In this document: in pieces, positions 9,841-35,097 of the stretch
Layout: every line of letters starts with the position of its first letter
Numbering within the stretch: the first letter of the stretch is position 1
Assembly (NCBI GenBank): GCA_015146655.1
Contig: VKHL01000006.1
Span: 1 to 64,000, forward strand
Direction: 5' to 3'
Length of the DNA: 64,000 nt
Source: Ochromonas danica
Taxonomy: Eukaryota > Sar > Chrysophyceae > Chromulinales > Chromulinaceae
Position numbers and translations under genes: made by a program
Notes under the pieces: model-generated
The model's database searches: none
What the model was told of the DNA's origin: nothing
The model's input: the letters and a program-made list of their open reading frames with translations, nothing else

Positions 9841-12800
9841 TTAAATCGAAGTGGAGAGTAACATCGCGACTCCTCGTTTGGTCCAGAAGTCAGCAGAGAA
9901 CTTGCCAGCTCGAAGATCAACACTTACAACATATGAAGGTCGCTCGCGAGTACCGGAACGAATAGGATACATATAAAGAGGACAAGTGTAGAAGCCCTTG
10001 TTCGCTCTCTTCTTTCCTTCCACAGGTTTGAAATGAATGATTGGCATGGAGGAAATGAGTTCCATTGGCCGAGACTCTTCTAAATAACCTCCAGTATAAT
10101 TCCATGTGGCTCCCTCGAGATAAACACCAGAGACATAGACACCATCCTTGGGTGCACCAGTGATGCTGCTCTTCTCTCCCGACACAGTGACAGGAGTTTC
10201 GTAGGAGAGAGAGTCAATACTCACTCCATTGGCTCGCGCAGATACCTGCAACACAGCTGTCAGGAAGCCTGTGGGATAGGTCATCGCCGGAAGCCACCAA
10301 CAATTAGGCAACCCATCACCCACCCAAGCCTGGAAGAACTCAACACGCTGACCGAGATCGCGCACCCACGAACCAAGGGGCTTCAGTGAAGGATATGTGG
10401 AGCTCCACAGTTTTGGCACTTTGAGCTGGCCAAGTGCATTCATGACCTCCTCAAGCTCTGTGGAAGTGCTGGCGGTGCCTTGAGTGACCTTGATGATGGT
10501 CGCGAGGGTAGTACGCACCTTGGACAGCAGAGCGTTATAACGATCTAACTCTTGATAAAGAACAGTCTTCAGAGGGTCCGGGTCACCACGTGGCTCCAAT
10601 GTCTCTCGCACTGAGCGCATGTCAAACGGTTCGGCCACATGTTGAAGCAATTCATGACATTGAGCAGCAAGAGGATCGGCAGCTTCCTCGCTGACAGCAT
10701 GCTTGGCCACAGAAGGCTGCAAAGAGACTAGGGTATCGAGCAGAGTCGTAGCATCGTCAATACTGGCTGCCATGTCACTATTGGCATGCTGTCCGAAAGC
10801 TAATGGATGGTCTGTAGCAGGAAAGCCGCGGATAACCTCCTTGTAGTGCTTCAGATCACCTTCTTCGGAAATGAAATAGTCTGGTAAATCCGACAGCATA
10901 AACTTCTCTGACGTAATGCACTCGTCACAGAAGAGCTCGCCAATGTACACATTGACTAATCGACGATCCCAGTCATCAGTCACACGACCACCATAGTTCG
11001 CCTCCGCAATGAGGTACTTCATCGCATCAAAAGGCACACGATCAGGATACTCATCCAAGAACACAATAATGAGATCATGACAAATGGCGAAATCAGACTC
11101 ATTGAAATCATACGGGATGTTGAATCCCAGTGACTTAAACTTTCGCCTCTCCAGCAGAATGGCATGAAACCACGCCAGAGCAAACAGCAATCGCTTGTAT
11201 GCTGTTGGGTGACCACACCGAGTGAACTGATCATCAGAGATAGTGTTATAGAGCGTCAATAAGTTGGAACGCAATCCCTTAGGAGGTTCAGTGGTCATCT
11301 TAATTCCTCGCTGCAGGATAGTAATAGGGAAGTTTGGATCAGGAGACGAAGACAGCCAGAGACGGAACTTAGGATGAGGGTTGCCTTCTACAAGAGCTTC
11401 GATCATCTTCTCGAGAGTGGGCATCCACGAGAGCATGAGGTGACAGTTGGCTAAGAAGACCCAGTGACCCAGTGCAGCGCCCTCCTCGATCATCTTCACA
11501 GCCGTAGGAGCTTGACCCTGTCCGAGGGCACAGTTCTCCACTCTTTGACCGATGGACGCCGCCAACTGGAAGATACCAGCCGTCGGATCAACACCAGGAG
11601 AAAGCACGAAAATGAGTGGTGTTTTGTTGGAAGAAGTCTCATACACAGCTTTGAGGTCAAAAGAGGGAGGATCGATGAACTCTGGTCCAACATTTGCAGA
11701 AATAAATCTTGCTGCGGCAAACATGAGCCTGTCCAATCGCAACGCCTTGAGAATGCACAGCTTCTGTAGCTCTGAGCATCGGATAGACCAATCTCCAGGC
11801 ATCTGCTCAGCTTCAGGCTTCGAAGATGTAAACCATGCCTTCCAGTCACGGGCCATTTGCTCAAACGAAGAAACAATTCCTTGAAAACCTCCAATCTTAT
11901 CCATTTCGGTAATGTTGTCCCATGCGAGAGCAGGCAACCAGTCCTCAGCGGGATTCTTTCGTTGTAAGGCGCGGTCGGCGACATTTGCACCCAAAGAGAA
12001 GAAGGCGAATTCCTCCTGATTGATCTGTCCTTGTGCTTCCATAATCTTCAGACATAGCTGCAGTGAGAAGAGCAATTTGTGAGCTTCGAAAAGTCCTCTA
12101 CACGTATATCTGTAGACTGATAGCGTGTGCTCAGTGTTGATATCCTCACAGCGCTTGGAAACAGGAACATCCAATGAGCCAACACGAGAGTTATCGATCG
12201 ACTGGTTGAAGAGATCGACATACGCATCAAGACTGAACTGATACATAGGATCAACCCGAGACATGTCATCCAGCACGAAGTATGCTAAGGAAGCTCGTAT
12301 AGCAGCTGAACGATAGCCCATACGAGCTGCATCAATCTTCTTTTCTGTCTGCTCTGCATCTACTAGTTGCTGTGTGACGCTTTCAGAAGTAATTTTGCTC
12401 TGTTGCAAAGTGTTCACCAAGCCTTCGTCGTCCAAGAGACTGCCTTTGGATTCGCTCAGAAGACGTAGAATCTCATCCTCCAATTCCACCAGTTGACGCT
12501 TTCCCGCAGCGACACGAATAGTAAGCTCGGATTTCTGCTTTTCAAGGTTTGGTTCTTCTTTTTGCACGACAATGCCCAACAACTGAGCCTCTAAGCCATC
12601 CTTCTTCACAGCAAAGTTCACGACAGTAGCTTTGGTGGAGATTTCAGGAGTGTAATGTGGGTTGCCCAACTTGGTCGTGATGTACAGTTTGAAATCTGGG
12701 GAATAGTCCAACTCCTTGTCTCCCAATCGAAGGATTTCTCGATTACCAACCTTTAGGATAGACTTGGAGAGAACAGGCTCCAATGCTGGATCGATCTCTT

Positions 12801-15800
12801 CAAGGATGTCTTGCAAGAGAACTGGAAAGCCATATTGCACCGCGTTTTCAACTTCTCGAAGGAAACCAGACATCTTTAGATCAATAATGCGCAATCGAGA
12901 TCCTTCCATGTTGCGAATCCAACGATTGGCCTGACCTTGAGGGTCGATCATCAGTGGCCAACGCCGACCACGCGTGGAAATGACACCGTTCTCCGTCGAG
13001 AAGTCATCCTTTGGAAGTCCTTGAATGTTCCAGTCTCGTACATCGGTGGATTTAGCCAAGAATGTGGTGAAGTTGAAATGTTCGGTCGCCGGCAATTTGT
13101 GTGATACCACAGATTTATTCCATTGCTTCAAAAGAGTGGAGCGATAAGAGGTTTCAAAGGGTCCAGCATAAGAGAGGAAAGCTGCGGCCACCAGGGCATC
13201 GCCGGTCACTTTCACGAGAGAAGTATTGTATTCTCCTATACTGGCCTGCCAACGAGTGTATTCGCCAGCTAAACCTCGCACTAATTTGTCTGCACGATCT
13301 AATTTTGCTTGCAAATTCTCAGCTTCATCTCGAAGTCGATTCTTCTCATTGACTGAGGTGTCATACGAAACCTGCAATGCCGCTAACTTAGCTGTAACAA
13401 CAGCTAAAGCATCTTGTGCTTCCTTCAGCGCTGCTTGCTTGATGGCGAGAGACTCAGTGGCCTCCTTCAAACGTTGGCGTTTAGGAGCGACTTCTTTGGC
13501 GACATTAGCATAGATGTAAATGGCATGTACCCAGGTACACAGAGCTGCAGCAGCTCCCGACACTTTCTTGACCTCCGCGGGAGTGAATGTTGGCATTTCA
13601 ACATACTTTTTGATCTTATTGTTCGTACTTGCAGAGACATGATCCTTGTCAAAGGATTTGATTTGCTGCAAGAAGTTGGCTTCAGAGAGAATCTTCTTCG
13701 CTGTCGCCCAATCTGTTGGCTTGTTGAAGAGAATCATAACAGCCTGCAATACAGTCTCGACCAAGGCAGGAGGCTTGGTATAGGCCTTTACTTCTGAAAC
13801 AGCGCTCTTATCAAGTTTCTCGACTTCCTCCATGGCCTTTTCCAAGGCAGGCATTGCGATGGCTAGATCAGCTTCAGCATCGTCAGAGATGGCCTTGCAC
13901 TCCAAAGCTTCTTGGCCAATACGTTCGGAATCTGCCTCAACCTGGCGACGCTGTTCGTCCGCCACTCGACGCTCTGAAACAATTTGCACCAACAAGTCTT
14001 CACAATCCTTCTGAGATTGCGCAACAATGACTTTCTTTACTTCGAGCTCCTTAGACAAGGTCTCCACTTGTTGCTTTGCATCTTCCAGTTTGGCCAAACC
14101 ATTTGCTAACTTATTGGCTGCGGAGCCAAGCTCGGAGCTCTTCTCTTTGAGTAACATACGATAGCCCTTGACAAGCTCCAAATAGTTTGTCGGAGTGACG
14201 TAGTTGTAGCGTTTTAGCTCAACCAGCATACGATGAGACTCATTGATAACACTAATATGCATCTCAGCGAACACCGCTGCGATTTTGCCGCGATAATCCT
14301 CTTGAGCGAACTCTACGACAGCGAGGAACTTCATCGCCACCTCTTGCAACGCTTCGGCAGGCCAGGTGTGGAACCAATCTATTGTTGTGCAACTCACCAA
14401 ACTTGGATACATTCGACAACGATTGCGCAAACTATCACCAATGGGAGACATTGCCAAGACAACATGAAGATTGGAACGAACTTGTTCGATGAAGAACTGC
14501 CAAAGAGCATCTGCTGTCTCATCATAACCTGCTGACACTGCCGGCTTTCGAACAGCATCGAAGATAGCAGGCAATTCATCTTTACCGAACAGATTAGGGA
14601 CAACGCCAGAAGAGAGGATATTGTTGATATCTTCCAGGAAACTCTCCTCTTTGACCTGCGTGTCGTTGAATAGGAATACTACTTTACGATTCTCACAGCC
14701 TGCTTGCATATAAAGCTTTTTGATATCTTCGCGGAATTCAAATAAGCGATAGTTCTTGGTAATTTCAATGCTGAAGGTTGTCATTCCAGCAATAAAAGCA
14801 CTCAAGCGGGTGAGAGAAGATCTACCACTGCCACCCACTCCGACTAACATCATATTACCACGCGGTTGCACAATCACTCGATGAATGCGGCACACATGCA
14901 TAATGGCATCTTTAAACATGGATAAATCCATGGGGATGAGTTTCGGCTCCATGTTGTAGTCTTCCAACTTCTCCTCGATGATCGTGCGCACTCTCTTGTA
15001 GTCCGTCACCTCCTCATAAACTACTTCACCATTTTCTCCACTTTCTTGTAATAATCCGCAGAAGACAGGACCAACCTTAGGGTCGAGAGCATCAGACATG
15101 ATGGCTCCCCAGTCCTTACCCATGCACTCAGACATCTTAGCCATAAGAATCTCACGGAACTTGTTTTCATCTTGTGTCTTGGTTTGAAGGAAGCGGTCAG
15201 AAAAGACTCGCTGACTTTCATGAGCCCAAAGGCGAAGCATGCCTTCAGGAGAGATGACAGTCGAGCGATTGGCCATTAGGACACCTTGAATAACTTTGGC
15301 CACGTCTCGCACATTGCTATCATTTACAAGCACATAAGAAACAATGCAATTTAAAACAGTGAAGAAGAACGACACTTACAAAAGATAATGGAACTTTTCG
15401 GGAGTCGCCAAGAAGTCTGCGCTAACGACCTTGAACACATTGAGAGTGGCCGTGGCAATACTCACAGAGAGCTGCTTGATCTCATTGTCATATTCGACAA
15501 ATTTGGATTGCAAGATGGAATCAAATATCTTGATAATCTGAGAGTCATGTGGGAAAGTGAGATTGATCACAGCAAAGCGAGATTGTGTGCGGCCGCAAAT
15601 CTGATTGCGACCACCGCCGGGATGTCCCATGGCTGCGAGAATCTGACTATCCAGAACAAACTTCCAATTGCATTTATGGCGATCATACCATCCTTGATAG
15701 TCAATCCATAAGCGAATCAGCTCTAAGGCCGGCTGGAAAGGTGACTCAGCGGAAGTCTTCTTTGGCATGTTGAAGTCATCAATGAACACGACCAAATTCT

Positions 15801-18800
15801 TTCCACCCAATGGACCAAGTTTATCCTTAGAGCGCTTCTCCATGGGGCCTTCGATGATATCTTGTACAGCAGCAGAGGTCGTAGCAGCGGAAAAGTTGAT
15901 AACTAGACGTGAGAAGTTATCTGGCAAATCCTTGAGAAGGGACTGAGCCAAAATGGTCTTGCCTGTACCAGTTGCGCCCACCAAGAGAACGTTCTTCTTG
16001 ACCTTCATGAAGGTCTCAGATATGTAAGAGTTACGAACCGTATCAACAGTTGGCACGATCATATCATAGAAGGTCATAGTCTTGAGATGGCGCCAAACAG
16101 GAACACGATTGTCCCATGACACAATATCATTCTTTGCAATATCGATATAGTAGTCAAAAACAGTATTAGCAGGTGGGAAAATAGCCTCAATATCAGCGAG
16201 ACAAGTTGAAATCTTCTTACGACTTGGTTCATCCACTGCAGCTCCCACCGTCCAAGTCAAAGCGAAGATGAAAATCTTCTCCACCACGGCTGCATAATCC
16301 GCACCCAATACTTCCTTCTTTAAGCTTGCAGTCTCCACTAAGCAGATAGCCTCATAGAGTGTGCACAGATTCATCACACAGCTGAAATCAGAGACTTTCA
16401 CAGGCTCGTTACAGTTTCTTTCTTTGAATTTGAGAAGCTTGGGAAGGTACTTCTCAAAGAGATCACGATGCAGGTTCGTGTTCTCCTCATCACCGCGAAA
16501 TCTCGCAGTTAGCCAACTCTCCGTGTAAGTTCTCCATCCTAACTCAGACGCATCAATATAGATCATGCCCGCACGAGAGACAGTAGCAGGAGATGCCACA
16601 CGAAGATCTTGTGTCTCGAAGACCAAGCTCATTGTGTTGGTTAAAGGAATACGATCGCCATTGATCAACGTGAGAATCTTGTTGTCATCCATGACAGAGT
16701 TCATGCTCTCAATCCAAAGCGCATCGATTGGCCCATCAAACAGAACCCACTTCTCGATTGGCTTTTCATCCTCAGCGCATTGCTTGAAGATGGTTGACAA
16801 AATGCCATCTCTCCATTCAAAGGTAGCCAAATCATAGGCACCATAAAGTTCATCCAGTTCGATAGATTTGGGAGATATAACGAAAGGGGTAACAGCCAGA
16901 AACCCCTCCACATTGGCCTTGGCCAAGGACGATTGCGCATTGGCTAACATTTTCCACGCAGTGCTCTTGCCTCCAAGAGGATCGCCGACCAACATATTGC
17001 AATGGCGAGTCAAGCGAGAATCATAGAACTGGAAGATCTTGGAAATAAGGAAGTCATGTTTCTGGAGGTTAGCCTTCGCTAACTCGGCTTCAATCGCTGT
17101 CTGAAGAGTTCCGTACTCCGACACAGGGAGCTCCAGGCCAGGAAAGAGATCTCCCAAGAGAAGACGAAAGAGTCTCTCGTCATCTTTGATGAACTTAGGA
17201 AGGTTCATGTCTCTCAAAGCTCTCATTAGAATAGCTTCTTCGCTAAGTCCAGAGTCGTTGCGTTTCAACTGTCCTGCCATGTTCAGCACAGCCTTAAGAT
17301 TACGCAGACCATAGTCATAATGATCTTGCTTGGACAGTTGCTGAACCATGAGAGAGTAGAGAGTGACAGTCTTCTTGGCCATGACACGAGCTTCATTGAA
17401 ACCTTCTGATGCAAGCATCACCTCAGCAATCATTGTGAGATCCGGCGCCATCATGGCAACAGGACGCATAAGAGCTTTCAAGTTGTCTGGAAGCTCGGTA
17501 CGGCCAGCATAACCAGGATTCATAGTGATGAAGATACCACAGTTGGGGTTGCAAGGAATGTTATTACCCATAAAAGAGAAAGATGGTACTTTAGCAGAAA
17601 GAGCATTGAGGATGGACAAAATCTGCATGGCCACCACGGAAATAACTTCAATCTTGATGCGGTTGAACTCATCAAAACATCCCCATGAACCAGATTGAAC
17701 CAATCCAGAGAAAATTCTTCCCACTGACTTGTAGTCCATGCCGTCCGAGCAGTTGATAACGACGACATACTTGGCGAGATTCTTCCCCAAATCTTTCACA
17801 GTCTCTGTCTTGCCTGTTCCAGCAGGACCAAGAGGATTGCCTCCACGATTGAGATACATGGCAGTAATGAGAGTAAGAACACAACGATCTGTCAGAGGAG
17901 TGACAACAAGACGACCATTGTTTCCTTGATATTCATAAGAGTACTCCAGCACAGAGTTGGTCTGGCGGACTTCGCATTTGCCAAACTCACCGCTTTCTTT
18001 AACAAAAACAAAGCGAAGCTGTGACAGCCATTCAAAGTCCGAGATGGAGTTGCAATTTGCCTTGATCATTCTCTCGATAACATCACGATTATGGATTTCC
18101 ATGGTGATCAAAGCCACCACTTTATTGCGTTCAATTTTGGTCAAAGGAGAGCGAATCATAGCGGTCAATTTGTTCAAATACGATACTTGTTTCTTCTTTT
18201 GCTGTTTCAAAGCACCTTTTGTACCCGATGAGATTGCCAGCAGAGCTTTGGAGCAATCTGTTGTCCAGACAATCGCTCCCGTGGTGATGATCAGCTGACC
18301 CAAGGTATCTTTCACCCACTTCTCTTTCTTTCCCTTGAATGCCTGGATCGACACGTTCAATAGTTTGGAAATTGCTCGTCGCATGGCTTTCTCCACTTGC
18401 ACCAACCACAACTCCACAGCACCATCAATGATCAAATTCTCCACAAAGGGCGCCACCTCACCATCTGGCGCATTCATTTGTACCGCTTCAAATACACGCG
18501 AGGAACCAGCCGGAGGGTTCATCTTCAAGGTCTTAATTCCTTCGAAACACTTCTTGATATGCTTTTGCACAGCCATCGGGTCTTTACTTTGTCCCAGAAT
18601 CTCCAACAGATCGTCATCCGAAACAAAGTAGAAACGAGGGAAAACCATTCGCTTAGTTTCAAGATATTGATCCAAGCTCTTTTGAATCCTTTCCAACCCT
18701 TCATCCATTGAATTAATTCTAGCCAATAAACCATCTTGTGTGCATGTTCTCTTGGCATTGGGATCCTTGAAGAATCCTTCCATCACCTTCAAGAAGTCGT

Positions 18801-21800
18801 TGTTTACACTAACGAACAGACTATACTCATAAGGGAGCTGTTTGGCGATATCACCGCCTGACATGAAAATGCTCTCGAGATAGATCCACTTTCTCTGCAC
18901 AGCCAGCATGGATTCAATAACCTCCGAGACAGTTGAGAGACAAGACTCCCATTCATCAATTTTGTTTTGGAAAGACAGGTAGAACTTGGATGACTTCATG
19001 GTGGACAGAGCAACCGAATCGTCCTCCAAGAACTGAGAGACGTCATCTACAGAGCGTAACTTGTAATATTTGTCTTTGTACGTCGCTACGTCCAGCTGAA
19101 CATCCATCCAGCGCTTCTCAAGATCATTGAGAGCGACCTCAATGGCCAACTCTTTGTTCGCATTGGCAGAGAGCTCTCCAATGAACTCCGCATGACTATT
19201 CAAACCCAACTTCACGACTTCATTGAGAGTGAAGGTGGGACTCTTCGGATCAAACTCTGTCCCAACGCGTTCCTGCAAAGCAGCCCAATGTCTTGGACGC
19301 AAAGCCTTATTTCGTAAATCTTGAATAAGAGGGATGGTTTCACGGAAAGAGTCCAAGTCAGCTTTCATGCTTTCCCAGACCTTCCATCGCTTGATATCAC
19401 GACCCAACTTGCCCACTTTCTTAGCATAGGTGCCAGCAATATTTTCCATTTCTTCTACGTCAAGATCATTGAATTGACCGTTCTTCCAGGTATCCCAATA
19501 GTTCTTCCATTCTAATGTCACAGTCCAGATCTGCGAAAGGAAGTCTACATCCTTGGTCAACGCAGTCAACTCTTTGTGTTCCACGGAGGGTATTCCAAAG
19601 ATTGCCAAACCAGTGGCCAAGCCAACTTCTCTCTCCTTCGCCTTAGAAATCTTGTTTTTGTATGTCTCAATGACTTGCAATGCCGCTTCAGGTGAAGTCA
19701 TCTCATTGCTGAAAGGCAACTCAATCTGAGAAGTGGCACGCAGCTCAGTCATTTGGTTGGAGTAGTTGTCCATCTGCACTTCCAGATCTCTCTTCATGGA
19801 AACTTTGGACTTGTCCAGCTGCTTTTCTGCATCATGGATGAAATCTGTGAATTCAGTGAAAGCTGTGTCTATGGTATCCAATCGATGAATCTCTTCATCT
19901 GGTAATGCCACTTCGAACTTCTTCAACGTGTTGTAAATCTCACGAACAGGATCGAACTTCGCTTGAATGGTTGCCAAGCTCTCCTTGGTCTCTTTACAGA
20001 ACGCAATCTTGGCGCTGAGCTCATCCAAATTGTTGGGTGCGATATTCAACTTCTCTCGAGAATCATCGAGGAAGCTGTAAATAGCAGAAAGCTCCTGAGC
20101 ACCATTTTGGTTGAGAAGACCCGTGAGTTTGGATTGTGATTGCAAGCAATGATTGATTAATGCCTCCTTCATTGCATTGCAATCGATTCGCACGAAATTA
20201 ATCGCCTGGGTGGAATTCTCTCCGTTGATCTCAGCCTGCTGCGTCTTGTATCGCGTGATATCGATATCGAATTGTGCAGGCGAATTATTGGCCTTAGCAT
20301 AGCGGCGAATAGCACTGTCTTTCTCAGCTTCCCAGAGAGACTTGTATTTATCCCAATAGGACAGATGTTTCTGTAATTCAGTGGCTGTGGAAGACATACC
20401 GTTCATGATCTGCATGACCAGACGGAGGATGTCGCTGTCATCACTGATGATTTCATAATACGAGCGAAATTTACTGCTGTCCTCGACCATAACTTCTTTG
20501 ATCAAAGATCCATCCTCTTGCGCTGGTGCAGGCAGTGGATTGTTCCCGTTCAGAGTGGTATTTGCACTCGTAAGCGTCGAAGAAGCGGAATCAAATGTTT
20601 GTGTACGAACACGAGGGACGGCGGTGACAACACTAATAATGTCCTTGGCAACAATATTAACACTGTGCGTAAGGTCAATCATACTGGGTGAATACGATAC
20701 TCGCATCTCATCCAAGAGAATGTTTACAGTGAAGAGCACTTGTGGCTCTGTCTTGGAGTCACCGTTAATAGCTCGTGAAAGCTCTTGCAAAGACCGTTTG
20801 ACGGAGTGCTTTAATGCACCTTCCACATTACGATCAATCTATTCAACCATGAGGCATAAAATCAGACAACCACAACAAAAACCATATTACAACAAACAGA
20901 GAAGAAACGAACCGTTGCAATCTGACTTCTCCACTCACGCTGTACTTCAGAAGATCCCTCTTTAAAGTTCTTGAAGACGTTTCTCAATGCTGCCATTAGT
21001 TTCTGATAAGACGACTCGAACATGGAAAACATGGAATTGCGATGCTCTTGTTGTCGCTTCTCGAAGACACCGCCCTCGTAGATCTGATTCTTATCCACAC
21101 GAACCAACAAAGCCGTGGAGATCTTCTTCAATAACTTGTTAATCGTGTTTTTGCAGTCTTTGAACTCTTTTACAAGTCCATGGACTTCATGGCAATGTCC
21201 ACAGCAATCTTTGACATAGATGTCGATCATGTTACGATTCTGCCACGTGATCTTTGACATGCCTTGTCCAACACGACGGTCTAGCTTGCGAATATGATCG
21301 AGAAAGAGTCTTCGCTCATCATTATTAATGTCGCGAATGATATCGTTGTAGGCTCGCACAATGAGCATGACAGACTCTCGCATCGTCCTCAGTTGCTCCT
21401 TCTTGTTGCAGAGATCATGAGCCATGTAAGGGATGGAGAACTCCCCTTGAAACTTCTCCCAGTAAGAAACCTCTGAGAAAAGGCTTAATAGGTCTTCATC
21501 AAAGTTGCAGACGATCTCTGAACCAACTTTGTTAGCATTGCTCGAGCTCTCGTCCAAGCGTCTCAGCAGAGGTTTCTCCAGCCGCACTTGAAGACCGTTA
21601 TCCGCAGCTTTGACTTTGAGGTCTTCCATCCAAATGTTATACCGACTCTGCTTGAAATCTTGGATGACTCCTGTTAGATTGACAAAGGATTCTTTCGATT
21701 CGTTGAACTCTCTCTCAGAGAGGATGTACTGCAGCCGTACGAGGCAGTCGAAATCGATCTTTACCAAGACACTCAGTGAGTGTGCCCAAAGTGCCGAGCC

Positions 21801-23546
21801 TGCATATTGAGGCTCATGGAGTCGTAGAGGAGGATTTAATCTGGACATGTCAAACTCAGACCGCATAGTGCGGACCAGTTTAAGGAACATGCTGTTAATG
21901 TCCGAGGCCTTGCGTTCCACACAGCGCATGATGATGTCCCTCTTGGCCAAGTGATAGAAAGTCTCGACCAAGACAACACCTTCTCGTACAGTGGCATTGA
22001 CCTCAAAAGCAGCATTAATGACATTGGTAAACATCACTTCCAGGTCCTTGACGTCGCTCTTGAAGTGGTTATAATCGTCATGCCACTTGCTGATCTTCAC
22101 ATCCAAGACATCATAATCCAACTTGCGCAATCGATCAACATGATGCTCAAACGACTCCTGGATACCATAGATACCGTCAACAATTTCCTGTGCTTTCGTT
22201 CCTCCAAAATGCGGCACGACACCTGGCGAGCCTTTGGTCTCGGACGATTTCCTAACAAACTGCATTTGAGACTCACAGATTTCAATCAAATCACGGCATC
22301 TTTGGACAAAAGCATCAATCTGAGCAAAGATGGAGGCATCATCTATTTCCCAGACCTTGCCATAGCGATTCTTCTGTTTGAAGATCGCCTCCACTGTTTG
22401 ATGATACATCTCTTTCCATTTGATACCACAATGAATAGCATCTTTCAAGCGAACGATGGAAAACTCCACATCTCCATCTAATACTTCACGAATATCGATG
22501 TGTCCTCGAAAGCGACGGATAATCTCATTGGAAATCTTGCGCAACAGTCCCGAGATATGATCATTATCATTGTAGAAAGAGGAGAAAGACCAGATCAATC
22601 GAATTCGATTGAGCAAGTCAGGCAAGACTGACACAATCTTCTCTGGATCGATGTTACGTAAAGCAGTACATTGTGGACGAATGGATTCCAAGAACTTGAG
22701 GTTGTCGTTCGATTCTGCTGCTCGACTGACGATCTGCTGAGTCCAGCTTTGAAAAGGGCCAATATAATTGGATTTGGCATACTGTAAAACATCAATAATA
22801 CGCTTGACATTCTCTCCCTCGAGTTGTTTCTGAATCCCCAACAGATCCTGTGCGCGCACTTTCCAGAATTCGATTTCATCAAGTGGTCCTGTGCTCTCCG
22901 CGCTGCCACTTGAATCATGGTTATTTACTACATCCTTGATTTGTCGAGTCCAGTGGATGACAATAGATTCCATGATCTGCAGTCGTTCTTTGTCTTGTGC
23001 TGCCTCGGGGACAGAGGCGTAGTCGAACTGTGGGCAATAGAGCACAGTGCGACCATCTGAATAGTGAATGGCGTCTGTTAAAGTCGCCATGCAGCGATGA
23101 TAATGGCCCGTGAGTTCATTATTCTGAGACACGTGTCGCTCCACGAGGCCTTTCATGACACGCTCGAAGGCCAAGAGGGACAATCCTTTGCCTCCGATCA
23201 TTCCGTATTGCACCTCCTTCTGTACGTTATCTCGAGTGATCGCTACTGCATTAGGACGAAGGAAGTAGGCAAATAATCCACGGTCAATCACAAACTTGCT
23301 AATATCTTCGCAAACCAGGCGGTAGCCTCCCGCCTCTTCTGTCTTGAGAACACACAATGTCTTCGGCCCCAACCCCGTGATAAACTCTATTATAACGGAT
23401 GTTACCCCATCTTTCTCGTTGCTAGTCCACAAAGATTCGGGGATGCCCAGCAGAGACAAGCGGTTGGTCACCCAGCTCAGCAAGAAGTCGTAGTGAGCAG
23501 TCTTTTGTTCTTCTTCTGCATGTTGTGCATCGGTATCTTCCAGCAT
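9841..23546 (-). CDS. DNAH2: Axonemal inner-arm dynein heavy chain, DNAH2 type
   Basis: Three exons (23546-20913, 20838-15380, 15316-9841) encode about 4,522 residues, the full length for an axonemal heavy chain. The tail matches DNAH2 closely (HWTRQIKD, GPLDEIEFW, WHDDYNHFKSDVKDLEVMF). The motor has four Walker A loops in order: GPAGTGKTETVKDLGK (AAA1), GDPLGGKST (AAA2), GATGTGKT (AAA3) and GVGGSGRSS (AAA4, with Arg in place of the catalytic Lys). Then come the coiled-coil stalk, AAA5/6 and the dynein C-terminal domain ending near KRGVAMLLSTSI. DNAH2 is one of the two heavy chains of the two-headed I1/f inner arm, so the organism builds motile flagella. The introns are only 74 and 62 bases; the first has an unusual GTTCGT donor. 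The earliest frame start is a TTG, so the ATG at 23546 is used. Confidence 0.95.
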
Positions 23547-23637
23547 TACCAACAAGGATGAATCAAACAACAAATCAATAAAAGACTACAATTACTATTA
23601 TTTATTCTAAAGACGACAGGGCAGGTTGACTATTTGA
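23547..23637. promoter_or_regulatory. 91-bp divergent promoter, dynein / EF-hand gene
   Basis: The start codons of DNAH2 and the EF-hand gene lie only 91 bases apart on opposite strands, so both 5' leaders and core promoters are compressed or overlap. Shared control, for example during flagellar growth, is inferred from layout only. Confidence 0.4.
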
Positions 23638-27420: not shown

Positions 27421-27900
27421 TTACTTAGTGGGCATAAGACCACCATAGAGGTTCTGCATCTTGGACACCATCAGGTTCTGAGATTTGGCGTGCGCATCAA
27501 TCAAAGCCTGGGTAGCCGCAGCGGAAGCTGCCTCTGCGCCCTGAGCAACCAAGGATTCACTCAGCTTGATGCTTACAGGAACTCCTACACCGTTGAAAGT
27601 TGCAACCGCTTGTCCGGTGGGATCTTGGCCCGCAACATTGGTGGCTTGCAATTCCTTTTGCAGAACCTCGGCTTGCTTGGCAAGCTCCTGGGCCTTCTTC
27701 ATGCTTTCCATCATATTTCCCATGCCACCAAAGAGTCCTCCATCCTTCTTGGCTGGAACTGGGGACTTGGGAGGCTCAGGACTGCCAAACAAGAACCTTC
27801 TGGTCACCAAGGAAGAATGGCGGAGACCTGCAGAGGTCTGAAAAGCAGTAGCAAGGGCAAGGAATGCAAGCAGAAGGCAGATTTTCAAAGAGGCGATCAT
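27421..27900 (-). CDS. Plastid YbaB/EbfC-family nucleoid-associated protein
   Basis: A single exon encodes 159 residues. The C-terminal ~100 residues match YbaB/EbfC: GGMGNMMESMKKAQELAKQ, an amphipathic helix, then the VAGQDPTGQAVATFNG strand region, and a last helix. Bacterial YbaB proteins are small dimeric DNA-binding proteins of the nucleoid; plant and algal homologues act in plastids. The N-terminus, MIASLKICLLLAFLALATAFQTSAG, is a signal peptide ending at an ATAF junction followed by a basic, Ser-rich stretch, the bipartite leader of complex plastids. The Phe after Ala is the diagnostic residue in ochrophytes. The frame extends upstream, but the ATG at 27900 gives the clean leader. A role in plastid DNA packaging is inferred. 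Confidence 0.85.
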   Translation of the reverse strand: MIASLKICLLLAFLALATAFQTSAGLRHSSLVTRRFLFGSPEPPKSPVPAKKDGGLFGGMGNMMESMKKAQELAKQAEVLQKELQATNVAGQDPTGQAVATFNGVGVPVSIKLSESLVAQGAEAASAAATQALIDAHAKSQNLMVSKMQNLYGGLMPTK

Positions 27901-29324
27901 CTTGCAAAGGGTTAATCTAGAGATGCAAAGGGTAGTGATGGTGGCAGTCTCCGTGCTGACGATTGAAGCCCCAGCCAACACACCAAGCAGACACACACCA
28001 CACAGAGAGTGCACAACAAAGAGAGACGTTAACTTGAAACAACCTTGGCTTTGTGGCCGGTGAATACCCGGTCTGCTGGCATGATCTTAGCTAATAGCTA
28101 ACCAAGTTATCAACTGATAGATGACTAAGCTGACATACGAAGGAGCTATTGGTCAATAGTAGTCAAATTGACCCAAACAAGTTGTATTTTCATGGAAACA
28201 CAGCAGCACACGCTAATCCTCTGTTTTCGTCAAAATTAGCATACAGTGGAAAAGTTCTTCAGGGGTAAGTTCTTCACGGCTTCTCTAGAGGTAGAAGTGA
28301 ATATTTAGAGGACAATGAGTATTAGACCAAACCTTTGGTCGATGGAAACGATTATTTATTAAGGGGATTATTTTCAAGGTATTCTTCAAAGTTGTAATGA
28401 AAATTGTAGCTCCTTGTCAATACTATCTATGATTAATTAATACTTCTGGTTTGTTTATTAGCCTCCTAGTTTGTTTATTACCATCACCATCACCATCACC
28501 TTCTTTCTTCGGCCGAATTGCTTCCATCGGAAACAACGAAATAGAACGTCACCCCAGGAAGTGGTGAATACGACGCAGACTTATAGCCAAAAGTGGCGTC
28601 ACCAAGCCACGTTGGTGGGAGAAAATCAGTGTTTAAGATTCGCGTCCCTTCTCATCCCCAACTTGCAACATGCACAGTTCAACGGTGCAAGCGATTTCGC
28701 CAGAAAGGTCTCCCTCTCGATCAAATCAGTCTTCTTCAATTTCCATTCTTAAAATGATTGCACTTCGACGAACGAAGGACGATACCACATGAACACACGA
28801 TAATGGCATGTCATTATTTGAACCTCAAGCCAAGACCAAGCGCTTTAAAAAGTCAAGGCCCATTTCCACTCTTTAACCTGACAAATACACAAGAATACAA
28901 TGACCAGGCTATGACAACATTTAACTGGTGAAGCAAGGCCCAGAATGGAAAACAACATTTAACAACCCAACTAAAGAGAAAGAGAATGATTGATGACTGA
29001 CATTCAAACTGGTCTGAAAAGTCTATAAAATGGAGTTAAAAGTCTCCAAGTTGTGAGTTGCGCTGCAATTGTCGAGGTTGTTGAGCCGATGGTGAAGCTC
29101 GACGTGCAGAGGACCTCATCATATCCCAGACAACAACAACAGACAACAATAACAACTGCTTGTGGACACAGACCACCTTCGCCTTCTTTCCCTCTCTACC
29201 CACTATCATGCCATATTATTAGATCACAGAATAATTATACAGATAAAGCGCGCTATTCACATTATTTTGTGGGATTGAAAGAAGCAAGAAATTGGAGAAG
29301 TAAGTCTTTCGATTTCGGGAACAA
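27901..29324. other. Intergenic, no gene seen
   Basis: About 1.4 kb between divergent genes. A short (CACCAT)n tract lies near 28482-28500. A 93-codon frame at 28471-28752 lacks a recognisable domain and is not called. Promoters of both neighbours must be here. Confidence 0.6.
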
Positions 29325-32300
29325 ATGTCTTCCAACAACAGCGATCCTGAAATCACACAACTAGAGCTAGAAGTTGACAAACTACTGGAGTTTATTAAAC
29401 CTTCCAATCTTGCAAATATTGTTCGATCAAAAGCTGCTGACTTTATTCGAAATGTGCTTCGCGATAAGCTCTCTCAGCAGGCAGTGATTGTCGAGTGTGG
29501 CTCCACCTGCTTGAGAACCTATCTGGCTGATAGTGATCTTGACTTGATCCTTATCACCAATAACTCCACCATATTGCACGATGACAAGCAGTTGTTGATC
29601 ACGATCTTCACTGCTTTGTGTGAGGAGATCTACAAGAAGGACAGTGTCTCGGGATATGCCACTCCTGCCCAGTTTACCATCCGCAACATAGACTTTATCA
29701 ACGCTCGGACAAAGCTCATCAACTGCTTGGTAAATAATATTGGAGTTGATATCACAGTCAATCAGGCCACTGCTATCTCCAGCCTCATCTTCTTGGAAGA
29801 AGCAGACAAACTGATCGGACACGACCATCTCTTCAAGCGATCAGTGCTGTTAATCAAGGTGAGAATGCAATAATTCTTTCCAGTGGTGGAAGTTTGTTTT
29901 ACAATTTTCTTTGTGTGTCTCTCTAGTGCTGGTGCAGCAGTGAAAGCTATCGACATTGTGGATTGCCAATTCTTGGTGCAAAAGAAGGGATGCTCTCATC
30001 TTATGCACTCTCTATCCTCGTCTTGCATCTATTCAATAAATATTCCAAATGTCTCTCTCATCCTTTTCATGCCCTCCATCTGTTTTTCTACTACTACTGT
30101 GGCTTCCCTTGGGGCACACACTTCGTGACGTTGACTGGTCCACAACCTCTTCCTGTCACTATCACAGGCAGCAACGCTGCCAACAACAGTAACGCAAAAG
30201 GTTCCTCAGCTAATGGGAAATTTGTGCATTTTGACAGCAAAAAGTACAAACATTGTTGCAATCGTTTTCAAGGAATTTTAGATGCTCTGCCACATCTAAC
30301 TGGGATGCCAGTACCTAGCTCAAATAGTCGATTTATCTATCGTTCTTGCAACATTCAAGATCCTGTGGATGAATTCAACAACCTTGGTATTAGTGTGACT
30401 GCTCATAACATTGCTTTGATTAATAATGCTTTGCACAGTGGACTCGTGCAAATAAATTCGATCCTCCAGCGGACAGCTGCCATGTTGAGAGGGAATTTGA
30501 CGAATAGTGGAGGTTTTACAACTCATTCCTTTCCAGCTGGCTGGAGCGCGCCTCAGATGTATACCAACACCTATCCTGCAAACCACAAGCGAAGTCCGTC
30601 TGTTGCCAACAACAACAACGGTGCCAACAATAACAATCGCAGACATTCCAAATCCTTCAATGAGCTTAATAATAATGCGCGGAGTAATGCTTCAGCGCTT
30701 CCATCATCTGTGCCGAGTCTCTTAATGTCATCGATATCGCCTGAGCCGTCAGATTCGGGCTCGACGGAGACCCAAGCACACCTCTCTTCTGCCAGGACAG
30801 AACAACGAGCCAGTCCTGAAAATGAAGTTTCTTCTAACAGTCCAACCAATTCTTCTATCAGCGTAGATCAGCCCATAAACGCGACTTTACCAATCATGCC
30901 GACCATGTCGCCGAGCAGTATTGGCCAATCTTATATTTCCGCACCCGTCTACCCACATCCCAACAATCTCAGCTACCCGTCGCCAAGTTCAGGTTTGCTA
31001 TTGAGAGAGTTTTTCCCTGTTAGTTTGGACAGGTATGCCTCGGGTCTCAGACGTGACCTGTGGGAGCATCCATTGCAGCATATGCGTGGTGTTGATAGCA
31101 TGGTTTACCACTCACTGATCCAGCAACATGGTGGCGTGGGAAATGAAACAACCTCGACCAGTGCAAAGCAGTCATCGTCGTCGAATGATGTAGACCCTCT
31201 CGTGAGTGATGTACAAGCGCTCATCGAAGCCTTGCACTTCTCTGTTGCGAAGAAGGAAGTGGCCGAACCAGGAGACACACCAAAAGAGGAAACGAAAGAG
31301 GAATATCCAGCAATGGTCGATAACTCCGATGTGCCCGTTGAGATAGACCGAGATCGAAGCACTCCTTGCTCGACTTCTTTGACCAACAGTCCTCGCAGCC
31401 TTTCTCCTTCTTTGTTGATCGAGGAAGAAAGCCACTTCTTTGAGAATATTCCACGTGATACTGTTGAGCAAACAATTGTCGCGCAAAATGATTGTTTTGA
31501 GGCTTCGGACGATCATCTCTCCATGAGCTCGCAAGCGACCACGGCAACAACATCCAGCAACGATCTGATTCATCCCTGCAGTCCTTCCCCTCTCCCGCCC
31601 CCTGCGACTCCTTTTCTCAACACTGCTACGAGCAAGAAGAAAAAGAGAAGTGACAGCAGTAAAGCAAACCGCAAAAGCTCCAAAGTGAATACATGTCGTG
31701 AGAATCAAGACGTTCAACGGGAAATTGTCGGTATCAATAGTGATCTGAGAACTCGATCGACATCGACCACTTCCCTATGCAATGCTAAAGATGAGGAATG
31801 CGATTTCGAAGAAGTTAACTCTCTCTTTGCTTTGTTTAATGACCAAATCCTTGAAGTAAAGGAACGTCTACAGAAGGTCATTGTTTGGCCTGTGGCGATT
31901 TGTGCGGTCTCATCAATCGTCCTGGCCATTCTCCTGCACAATCATTTACGACTGTTGAATGGCAGTCCCTCTACTGCTGGGCTAGCCTCCACCTCGGAGC
32001 CCTCCTTGTTGAATAATCAATTACAAAGTAGACCATTCAACAACAATTTGGAGAGAAGCCCTGCGAGTAGAATTAGTGGTTCAACCTTTTTGTTTGAGAG
32101 TAGTGACAATCGTCGGATTCATATCCATGTGATAGACGAGCAAGCCCTTCCGTTCACGACTGTATCATCATCTTCATCTTCTTCATCTGTTTCGTCTATG
32201 ACACCCTCAGCACATGAGGAGGAAGGCCATTCCAGACGATTGCAGACACGAGTAGTTACCCACTGGGTGCAGCTTGGAGATAGCATAACCTTTGGAGACT

Positions 32301-32958
32301 TTGGCAATGGAATAGACGACGAGAGTGGTCTGGTACTGGACCATCGATCGTCATTCTTACAAGATGAGCTATTTCTTTCCTCTTCTAGCCATTCTGTGAG
32401 CGGTGCACAATATTTGTGGAAGAAAGACAATCTGTCTCTCATGGTCTCCTCTCAGCCATTCTATACAATCGACCGAAGCTCACTGGCGGATGGTGGGCAT
32501 TATGCTTGTTTCCGACTGCCAGCTGGACTTGATTTGGATAGAAGCGCACATTTTCTTTCAGAAAAGGTCTCGGCGGAGGTTGAAAATAGTATGACTAAGG
32601 TCGCTGAGACCATTGTGAGGATCAGCAGTAAGTTGCTTTGTCTAGCCTTCCCTTGTTTTGCGTGTGCAGAGTAATGATTGTTGATTGTGTTTCGACAGAG
32701 AAACCTCGGGTTCGCAATCGTGCCAGTTATCAGGAGATTCCCAAGGGAAAGGAGATCTACCTGAAGTTAGAAGTGGATGCGTTGCCACCGCCGCGTTTCC
32801 AATGGTTTCGCAATGGTTATCCTCTCGCCGACCAACGCCTACAAGAGTTGCACATATTAGAAGCGCAGCCTGGAGACAGCGGCACCTACAGCTGCGAGGT
32901 GCGCAACATTGCAGGAGCGCAACTTTGGCTGGAAGCAACTTTTGTCGTCCTGGAATGA
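29325..32958 (+). CDS. PAP-like nucleotidyltransferase fused to TM segment and Ig-like domains
   Basis: Three exons (29325-29858, 29927-32627, 32699-32958) encode about 1,164 residues. Residues 1-280 form a non-canonical poly(A)-polymerase-like enzyme: GSTCLRTYLADSDLDL carries the GS motif and paired catalytic Asp, and VDITVNQ supplies the third Asp. It continues into the PAP/OAS1 helical domain (DKLIGHDHLFKRSVLLIKCW, then LGAKEGMLSSYAL), closest to a plant nucleotidyltransferase family. A long Ser/Asn-rich region follows, then one membrane helix at about 830-851 (VWPVAICAVSSIVLAILLH). The C-terminus has two Ig-like folds: WKKDNLSL with DGGHYACF, and FQWFRNGYPL with DSGTYSCEV. RNA or nucleotide transfer on one membrane face and adhesion on the other is inferred. 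The junctions are in frame, so this is not a mis-joined pair of genes. Confidence 0.8.
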
Positions 32959-33271
32959 GTGCGACCACAACGAGATGGTGGTGGTTATCTGGTACAGTAG
33001 TAGTGACTGTCGGCTATCCTCTTTGTCAATCTTCTGTGGTAACGAATTACTCTATCACCTCGAGAACACACGTAAGCTATGGATAAGCAGCGGTCTGTGT
33101 GTTTTGAGGATGTTTGTGTGTTGTAAATAGACTGATTATTTTCTCTACCATCCAGTTAATTAACTATCTTCTATTCATCAATATGAACGAGAAAGACATT
33201 AAACTCAGGTAATGAGTTAGTAGTTGACAAGGTTAGATTATCATAAATCATCAAAGCGACGCAATGGATAT
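32959..33271. other. Intergenic, convergent 3' ends
   Basis: About 310 bases between the convergent nucleotidyltransferase and serpin genes, probably 3' UTRs. Nothing else is seen. Confidence 0.6.
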
Positions 33272-34648
33272 CTACGCACAGTCAAAGTCAGCTAAGAAGA
33301 GAAGCGTGTTGGTAGGAAGGTGACGAAGATAGTAGACAAAAGTGTGATCAACTTGCATCAACATGACACCAGGCGTTGCTTTCTGTTTGTTTGCAACGCT
33401 GCTGGGCTGATTCGCGATGGTCGAAATGGATTTATTCTGCAATAATGCTGCAGCCTCTTTCTCACGTTTAATGAACTCATGAAGGGAGGTACGATCAGAA
33501 TTGAATCCCAATTCATCCAAGGTGACGATTATTTCATGAATAAACTCTGTGAGATAGATGGAACCATCGGATAGCAGAGGGAAAGACGACTTCTTCGCCT
33601 CAAATATCGCTTTGACACCAAGTTTACGAAGATTGCCAACAGAACGAATCATTCTCTTTTGCTTGAACTTTGGCAACACAACTTCCATGTTAGTCACTTT
33701 TAATCGTTGCCATTGATTTGACAAGTCAGAGAAGTTGAAGGAAGGCATTGACACTTTGCCATCAGAAGACAGCCGCTCCAACACAATGCCGAGCGCATAT
33801 TCTCCAGCAGGACCAACTGGCAACTCAACATGCTGCATCTCATTGCTTGCATAATATGGGAATGACCCTTTTCTTCGTAACATAGGCACAGCACAAGTGC
33901 TGCCCACGTATCGTGTGAAATTACCAAATCGGGTAGAGGTGGGAGGAAAAGCTTGTTTCCAGTTTGCCTGGAAGTACAAGGAGTTAATAAGCACAGAGGA
34001 AGTGGTGGGTCGAATGACCTTGGCCGCGGAGCTGATATGACCATTGGTTCTGGAGGAGAAGAGCGTGTTGATCTTGTGGATGGTCTTCATCGCATCGACG
34101 TGGTCGTCCAGCGAGACAACGCAGAGGCCGTCCACCTCGGACAAGAAAGATGTCTTCAATGGCTCATTGCCAAGCGCGGCAAGAGAGGAGTGGTTAGCGT
34201 TGATGGACCAGTAGGTGATGAGGTCCAGGAGGGTGGAGTTGTCGCTGCTGTCCCTGGGGGAGAGCGCCTGCTTCATAGAGCGCAACTCTTCTGATGTGTA
34301 CTGACCGAGAAGCAGGGAGGACAGTTCATCCCTTGCCGTGCCATTGCTGGCGAGTTGTAACACAGACAGTGTGTAGGCCAGACTCAACGGGGAGAAGACG
34401 CGATTCAAAGTCGTGAAAGTCTGGAAATACTGTGTCGAGAAATGGTTGGCATGCTCTGCTAAAGGATGAAGAAAGGATTTAAGGGATTTCTTGTTGTCAA
34501 CACTGGACACTATGACCTCTTCTCCTACAGACTCCACCCCTTGGAGGTTGTTGTTCTGCTGGGAGGGAGAAGAAGATCGCAGAAGAAACACGACCATCAA
34601 GGCCAGGACACCAGCGACTGTCAAGTAAATATAGACTGGACTACCCAT
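33272..34648 (-). CDS. Membrane-anchored serpin
   Basis: A single exon of 458 residues. A hydrophobic segment at about 7-24 acts as signal anchor. The serpin fold follows: RVFSPLSLAYTLSVLQLASNGTARDEL (helices B-C), INSLYFQANWKQAF (strand 3A), MPSFNFSD then MEVVLPKFK (helix F to strand 6A area), and the C-terminal VDHTFVYYLRHLPTNTLLFLADF, matching the family's DHPFLFFIRH block. The reactive-centre region is unusual: after LDELG, where inhibitors have EEGTEAAAAT, a long charged stretch with EKEAAALL intervenes before ATPGVMLMQVDH. That suggests altered target range or no inhibition. Several N-x-S/T sites fit a lumenal or extracellular domain. No partner protease is nearby. Confidence 0.85.
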   Translation of the reverse strand: MGSPVYIYLTVAGVLALMVVFLLRSSSPSQQNNNLQGVESVGEEVIVSSVDNKKSLKSFLHPLAEHANHFSTQYFQTFTTLNRVFSPLSLAYTLSVLQLASNGTARDELSSLLLGQYTSEELRSMKQALSPRDSSDNSTLLDLITYWSINANHSSLAALGNEPLKTSFLSEVDGLCVVSLDDHVDAMKTIHKINTLFSSRTNGHISSAAKVIRPTTSSVLINSLYFQANWKQAFPPTSTRFGNFTRYVGSTCAVPMLRRKGSFPYYASNEMQHVELPVGPAGEYALGIVLERLSSDGKVSMPSFNFSDLSNQWQRLKVTNMEVVLPKFKQKRMIRSVGNLRKLGVKAIFEAKKSSFPLLSDGSIYLTEFIHEIIVTLDELGFNSDRTSLHEFIKREKEAAALLQNKSISTIANQPSSVANKQKATPGVMLMQVDHTFVYYLRHLPTNTLLFLADFDCA

Positions 34649-35097
34649 CGTACTTTACTTCTGTATCACTCTATCACTTATGTTCTCTAATGGGTGGCGC
34701 AATCCAACCTCTTCTCAGTGACGGATTGCAATCCTATCCTGTTCTATCCGATCAGATTAGATCAGATTAGATCAGATTTAGATCAGATTTAGATCAGATC
34801 CCAATCACTCCCTGCTGGGCAACACAAACGCTGGAATGGCTGCCAGGTTTCACGGAAATACGACTTTTAACTACACTTTCCCGACTTCTTCGACGAAAAT
34901 CAAAATCACAGTGAATGCAAACATTATGTTACAAGCAGCACAGTCCCAAGCTGCCAATAGTCTTGGGACTAGAGAAGCAACTCTCCTCTCTTCATTGTGC
35001 TAAACTGACTTCGATGAGATGAAGGATAATGACTCACTAACTCACGACTTCCACTGGGTTCTTCTCTCTCACTATTATCAGAAGAATGCCATAGCCA
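34649..35097. other. Intergenic, includes AGATCAGATT repeats
   Basis: A tandem run of (A)GATCAGATT(T) units of 10-11 bases lies at 34750-34800, about 100 bases upstream of the serpin start. No gene is seen in the remainder. Confidence 0.8.

Follow-up and report, generated by a model that had tools for sequence, protein, structure and literature searches.

A gene at positions 29325-32958 on the forward strand of the Ochromonas danica DNA analysed here (a stretch of 64,000 nucleotides, the window) contains, in this order, a nucleotidyltransferase (NTase) palm, a poly(A)-polymerase (PAP)-like helical part, a linker, a transmembrane (TM) helix, an Ig-like domain and an Ig domain. In its best reading, to which we give a probability of about 0.45, the product would be a type II RNA-tailing enzyme anchored in the ER or another endomembrane, comparable to TENT5 with FNDC3 but made as one chain. 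The features of the gene are as follows.

29325-29858 (+): exon 1, residues 1-178, with the start codon and the NTase palm
29367-29780 (+): NTase palm, residues 15-152, match to MTPAP-like_central (PF22600)
29499-29504 (+): G59-S60, motif position of the NTase signature
29535-29543 (+): D71-x-D73, first two putative catalytic aspartates, by family motif
29748-29750 (+): D142, third putative catalytic aspartate, by motif
29859-29926 (+): predicted intron 1, 68 bp, GT-AG
29927-32627 (+): exon 2, with the helical/PAP-associated part, linker, TM helix and first Ig-like domain
30074-30175 (+): PAP_assoc-like stretch below threshold, PF03828 17.7 bits, E 0.0045, cut-off 22.6
30347-30469 (+): DPVDEFNNLG stretch, residues 319-359, where the enzyme core ends; aligned with paralogues
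30470-31876 (+): Ser/Asn/Pro-rich linker, residues 360-828; S 16%, N 8%, P 8%
31877-31939 (+): membrane helix, residues 829-849, the most hydrophobic part of the protein (mean Kyte-Doolittle 2.65 over 19 residues)
31940-32212 (+): Ser-rich stem, residues 850-940, 25% S, one N-x-S sequon at 856
32213-32626 (+): tentative first Ig-like domain, residues 941-1078
32628-32698 (+): predicted intron 2, 71 bp, GT-AG, phase 1
32699-32958 (+): exon 3; codes for the second Ig domain and includes the stop codon
32701-32907 (+): second Ig domain, residues 1080-1148, Ig_3 match

Gene structure and neighbourhood

The three exons, when spliced, gave a protein of 1164 amino acids with no internal stop, which bore out the start and end of the gene in the first-pass annotation and its claim of one continuous reading frame from the enzyme to the Ig part. 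In exon 2 the reading frame stays open over 915 codons, and a chance open frame was ruled out, as the longest frame in 500 dinucleotide shuffles of positions 29000-33300 had 237 codons, with an average of 130. The true frame had the highest codon bias of the six frames in 11 of 15 exon-2 windows, and by synonymous choice alone it was best in 6 of 11; codon bias, which is low in this region of the genome, lends weak support to the frame.

Downstream, a serpin gene on the reverse strand (33272-34654; PF00079, 153.1 bits) lies tail-to-tail with the gene at a distance of about 310 bp. Its product has a strong membrane helix at the N-terminus (Kyte-Doolittle 2.58 at residue 7) and would be a membrane-anchored serpin in an alga. 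Also on the reverse strand, positions 27421-28086 encode a YbaB/EbfC protein (PF02575, 44 bits) whose hydrophobic N-terminus, together with an AFQ motif, we take to be like an ochrophyte plastid targeting sequence, and positions 9841-23585 hold open reading frames of 1844, 1820 and 907 amino acids that by eye are like axonemal dynein heavy chains and suggest a flagellated stage. Elsewhere in the genome the light-harvesting profile gave 47 match rows, and the PDB matches of one of them include fucoxanthin-chlorophyll proteins, which would fit a photosynthetic ochrophyte. On a short contig (L027, C224 8673-16382) four equal-scoring light-harvesting genes about 2.4 kb apart form a tandem array.

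The nucleotidyltransferase part and its paralogues

The palm model PF22600 matched exon 1 scanned alone at 28.5 bits and the palm in the genome scan at 27.7 bits, both over the Pfam cut-off of 27, but the full protein at 24.1 bits, under it. The poly(A)-polymerase-like domain described previously thus stands for exon 1, which passes the cut-off and holds the G-S and the three aspartates, and less firmly for the protein as a whole. PF01909 reached 14.6 bits on exon 1 alone (cut-off 21). The G-S with three aspartates (D-x-D plus D), all present here, is what we take to be the motif of the non-canonical poly(A) polymerases and TUTases, and the LFKRS-LLIK-W and DPVDxxNNLG stretches presumably resemble those of the Arabidopsis group 1 NTPs. 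The domain may thus be of the plant type, as noted earlier.

A search of the genome with the full protein found four paralogous places, one on contig C22, two on C52 and one on C90. The C22 paralogue is the closest (E 2.2e-32, 32% identity over query residues 17-250); the C52 copies and C90 matched at E 1.5e-10 to 9.7e-10. The alignment with the enzyme part of the paralogues extends to residue 359, and P324 is invariant in all five members of the group (the window member and the four paralogues). A PDB search with the profile of these five gave 16 rows at E 10 or below (best E 0.0082), 15 of which are TUT4, Trf4-type Pap2, Cid1 and poly(A) polymerases, the remaining one being SMYD2. Used as single queries against the PDB, the window NTase matched no NTase and its closest paralogue matched nothing. 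By hhalign against four other NTases of the genome the motifs fell in register at E 0.00085, with a probability of only 23.8%. AlphaFold2 run on exon 1 as a single sequence without an alignment reached a pLDDT of 34.4, too poor for a fold search. Motif, palm profile and group profile jointly underlie the NTase assignment. PF22600 and the group profile with its weak PDB matches give a weak indication of an RNA-tailing identity, and the N-terminal part is probably active as a non-canonical nucleotidyltransferase like the TUTases and poly(A) polymerases, whichever nucleotide it may add.

At residues 59, 60, 71, 73 and 142 the window protein has G, S, D, D and D. The corresponding residues are G, S, G, D and T in C22; G, M, P, R and E in the first C52 copy; G, L, I, R and E in the second; and G, L, Q, D and S in C90. 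All three aspartates are kept in none of the four paralogues, and among the five the whole GS-DDD set occurs only in the window member.

In the C22 paralogue a PX domain (69.2 bits) and the NTase belong to a single spliced reading frame of 848 amino acids that has no internal stop; the hydrophobicity maximum of this product, 1.46, corresponds to no TM helix of comparable strength, and no Ig domain was matched. This nearest relative thus differs from the window protein by its PX domain, by the loss of two of the three catalytic aspartates and by the lack of an Ig match. Since PX and NTase stand in one spliced frame in C22, the group would also have membrane attachment by another means. Among the other three paralogues, one C52 piece gave a PX match of 15.1 bits (cut-off 21.6) and two gave none, and the winged-helix model wHTH_TTC3 was detected below its cut-off in two paralogues (21.9 and 13 bits). 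None of the 23 PX matches in the genome lies on contig C6, which carries the gene described here, and an overlooked PX exon in the gene's neighbourhood was therefore rejected.

The C22 locus (L020 1302-5423, reverse strand) reads as one gene comprising a PX domain, an NTase that has lost catalytic residues, and a further open reading frame downstream, and together with three further paralogues (L021, L022 and L023) it makes up a PX-NTase pseudoenzyme group. A hydrophobic stretch at L021 3705-5593 was rejected, as two open reading frames of different frames had been read as one.

Membrane helix and Ig-like domains

The low-complexity region, previously put at about 550 residues, is 469 residues long and starts only after about residue 359, which the enzyme alignment with the paralogues reaches. 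It leads to the single membrane segment already noted by the first-pass annotation. The 15-residue flanks of the helix hold three K/R on the N side versus one on the C side; their net charge is 0 on the N side and +1 on the C side and does not support an N-inside topology. Beyond the helix there are two N-glycosylation sequons, the one in the stem and one at 1013.

In the scan of the full protein the second Ig domain scored over the cut-off with three models, Ig_3 (47.4 bits, cut-off 30), Ig_2 (46, cut-off 27) and I-set (37.5, cut-off 23.7), each covering residues 1080-1153 or part thereof; in the genome scan it scored 45.1 bits with Ig_3 (cut-off 30). Its PDB matches include titin (E 1.6e-15) and cell-adhesion proteins, and it also matches a phage tail protein family (PHROG 3995, E 7.7e-8). 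The first Ig-like domain has the W and a Y-A-C, but its Ig_2 score of 16.2 bits (E 0.013) is below the cut-off of 27, so that of the two Ig folds with W and Y-x-C signatures proposed earlier the last is confirmed and the first stays tentative. AlphaFold2 on the first Ig-like domain, again with one sequence and no alignment, gave a pLDDT of 32.1, too poor for a fold search. In the whole genome (31.2 Mb) there was one I-set match (E up to 1) and one Ig_3 match (E up to 10), both being the second Ig domain, in scans that would miss domains split by introns and that likewise did not report the first Ig-like stretch.

The only cysteines beyond the TM helix are 1039 and 1144, each inside a Y-x-C, and the B-strand cysteine is absent from both Ig-like domains. 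C1144, on the F strand of the second Ig domain, thus has no second cysteine for a B-F disulphide pair, and in the alignment with titin a leucine takes the B-strand cysteine position. The absence of these cysteines would also fit a reducing compartment.

The kept catalytic residues, the TM helix, the confident Ig domain and the unbroken frame support a membrane-tethered NTase, as had been proposed. The further suggestion that it responds to an outside ligand found no support of its own, and with the B-strand cysteine absent in both Ig-like domains a role at an intracellular membrane fits equally well.

Function and comparison with known systems

FNDC3 proteins carry beta-sandwich fibronectin III domains. 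The endomembrane-tethered tailing enzyme with a lumenal Ig part is favoured because of the TENT5/FNDC3 precedent and the presumed resemblance to NTPs. The product would be a single-pass type II protein with the enzyme in the cytosol and the Ig beta-sandwiches across the membrane, in the lumen or outside, a topology and a location that we infer. The long flexible linker and the TM helix would hold the NTase close to the membrane, and nucleotides would be added to RNA 3' ends at the membrane surface, probably that of the ER or another endomembrane. Membrane-bound RNAs, such as secretory mRNAs, or decay intermediates might then be picked by place and not by sequence, and the Ig end may keep the enzyme in position through a lumenal partner or by self-pairing.

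According to PMC13291444, transmembrane FNDC3 proteins recruit TENT5 enzymes to the ER, where these raise secretory mRNAs, and the choice of mRNA comes from the tethering. In the system of TENT5 (FAM46) and FNDC3A/B a TM partner keeps a non-canonical poly(A) polymerase at the ER, with two proteins versus the one chain here. Neither FAM46 nor a fibronectin family was among the six Pfam families found in the full protein at E up to 1. The Arabidopsis group 1 NTPs (NTP2, NTP6, NTP7 and NTP8) also have a PAP/OAS1-like domain after the NTase core, as well as disordered regions; pre-miRNA cytidylation is reported for NTP6 and NTP7, and a P-body location for NTP8 (PMC13030794, accessible text). Unlike in the window protein, a TM helix or an Ig domain is not mentioned for the group 1 NTPs in that portion of the same source (PMC13030794). 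Titin, cell-adhesion and phage tail proteins with I-set/Ig_3 share the profile of the second Ig domain, which here has the B-strand cysteine replaced and an enzyme and a TM helix attached.

Literature searches aimed at the order of parts found no open-access paper describing it. Among viral contigs the five-NTase profile gave 34 pattern matches and the second Ig domain 21, and among prokaryotic genome contigs the second Ig domain gave 115; none of these was confirmed, and such collections are uninformative on other algae. Each part is already known, and the combination, seen in one gene of one assembly, is new as far as the open-access literature was searched.

An unlikely but not negligible alternative is that alternative splicing or an inner promoter yields two products at the locus, the enzyme in soluble form and the TM-Ig part as another protein, with the fused chain as a minor form. 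Strong donor-like GTRAG[TA] sites are present in exon 2 at 31202 and 31698, although two such sites in 2.7 kb may be chance, and if intron 2 is left unspliced the frame stops at 32674, before the clear Ig domain. Against this, there is no stop between the enzyme and the TM helix, so that any unspliced enzyme mRNA includes the TM part.

That the protein is a degenerate or pseudo-enzyme, anchored in the membrane as an RNA-binding protein or scaffold like the four inactive-looking paralogues, is rather improbable. The incomplete aspartate set of every paralogue and the marginal palm and PAP_assoc scores speak for it, but the G-S and all three aspartates are kept in register in the window member, which would be unexpected if the activity were not under selection.

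We judge just as improbable the receptor-enzyme of the first-pass annotation, in which an Ig part outside the cell would bind a ligand or a neighbour and alter RNA tailing inside. The order of parts, an I-set type Ig domain resembling those of titin and cell-adhesion proteins in the PDB, and the Ser-rich stem with the two sequons after the helix agree with it. The plasma-membrane location is an assumption, however; a disordered linker of 469 residues would be a poor transmitter of a signal, and the absent B-strand cysteines, unusual for an extracellular Ig domain, weaken the case for a receptor of an outside ligand. A little less probable again is a single-chain TM receptor with RNA 3'-end modification as its output, in which the Ig ectodomain would detect a partner beyond the membrane and so switch local RNA tailing on or off.

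An artefact of assembly or gene modelling that joined two genes is very improbable, for although the joined chain is known as a single copy from a single assembly, with no relative seen in the collections searched, the join lies inside the long exon-2 frame, where a random join would stay in frame only by luck.

If the chain is made as predicted, one protein would do what TENT5 and FNDC3 do as two in mammals, and membrane-located RNA tailing would seem to have arisen more than once. With a removable anchor in one gene, it may serve as a model for asking if location by itself determines the choice of RNAs for tailing. The gene also stands out for its I-set domain, a rarity in an alga and the only one found in this genome.
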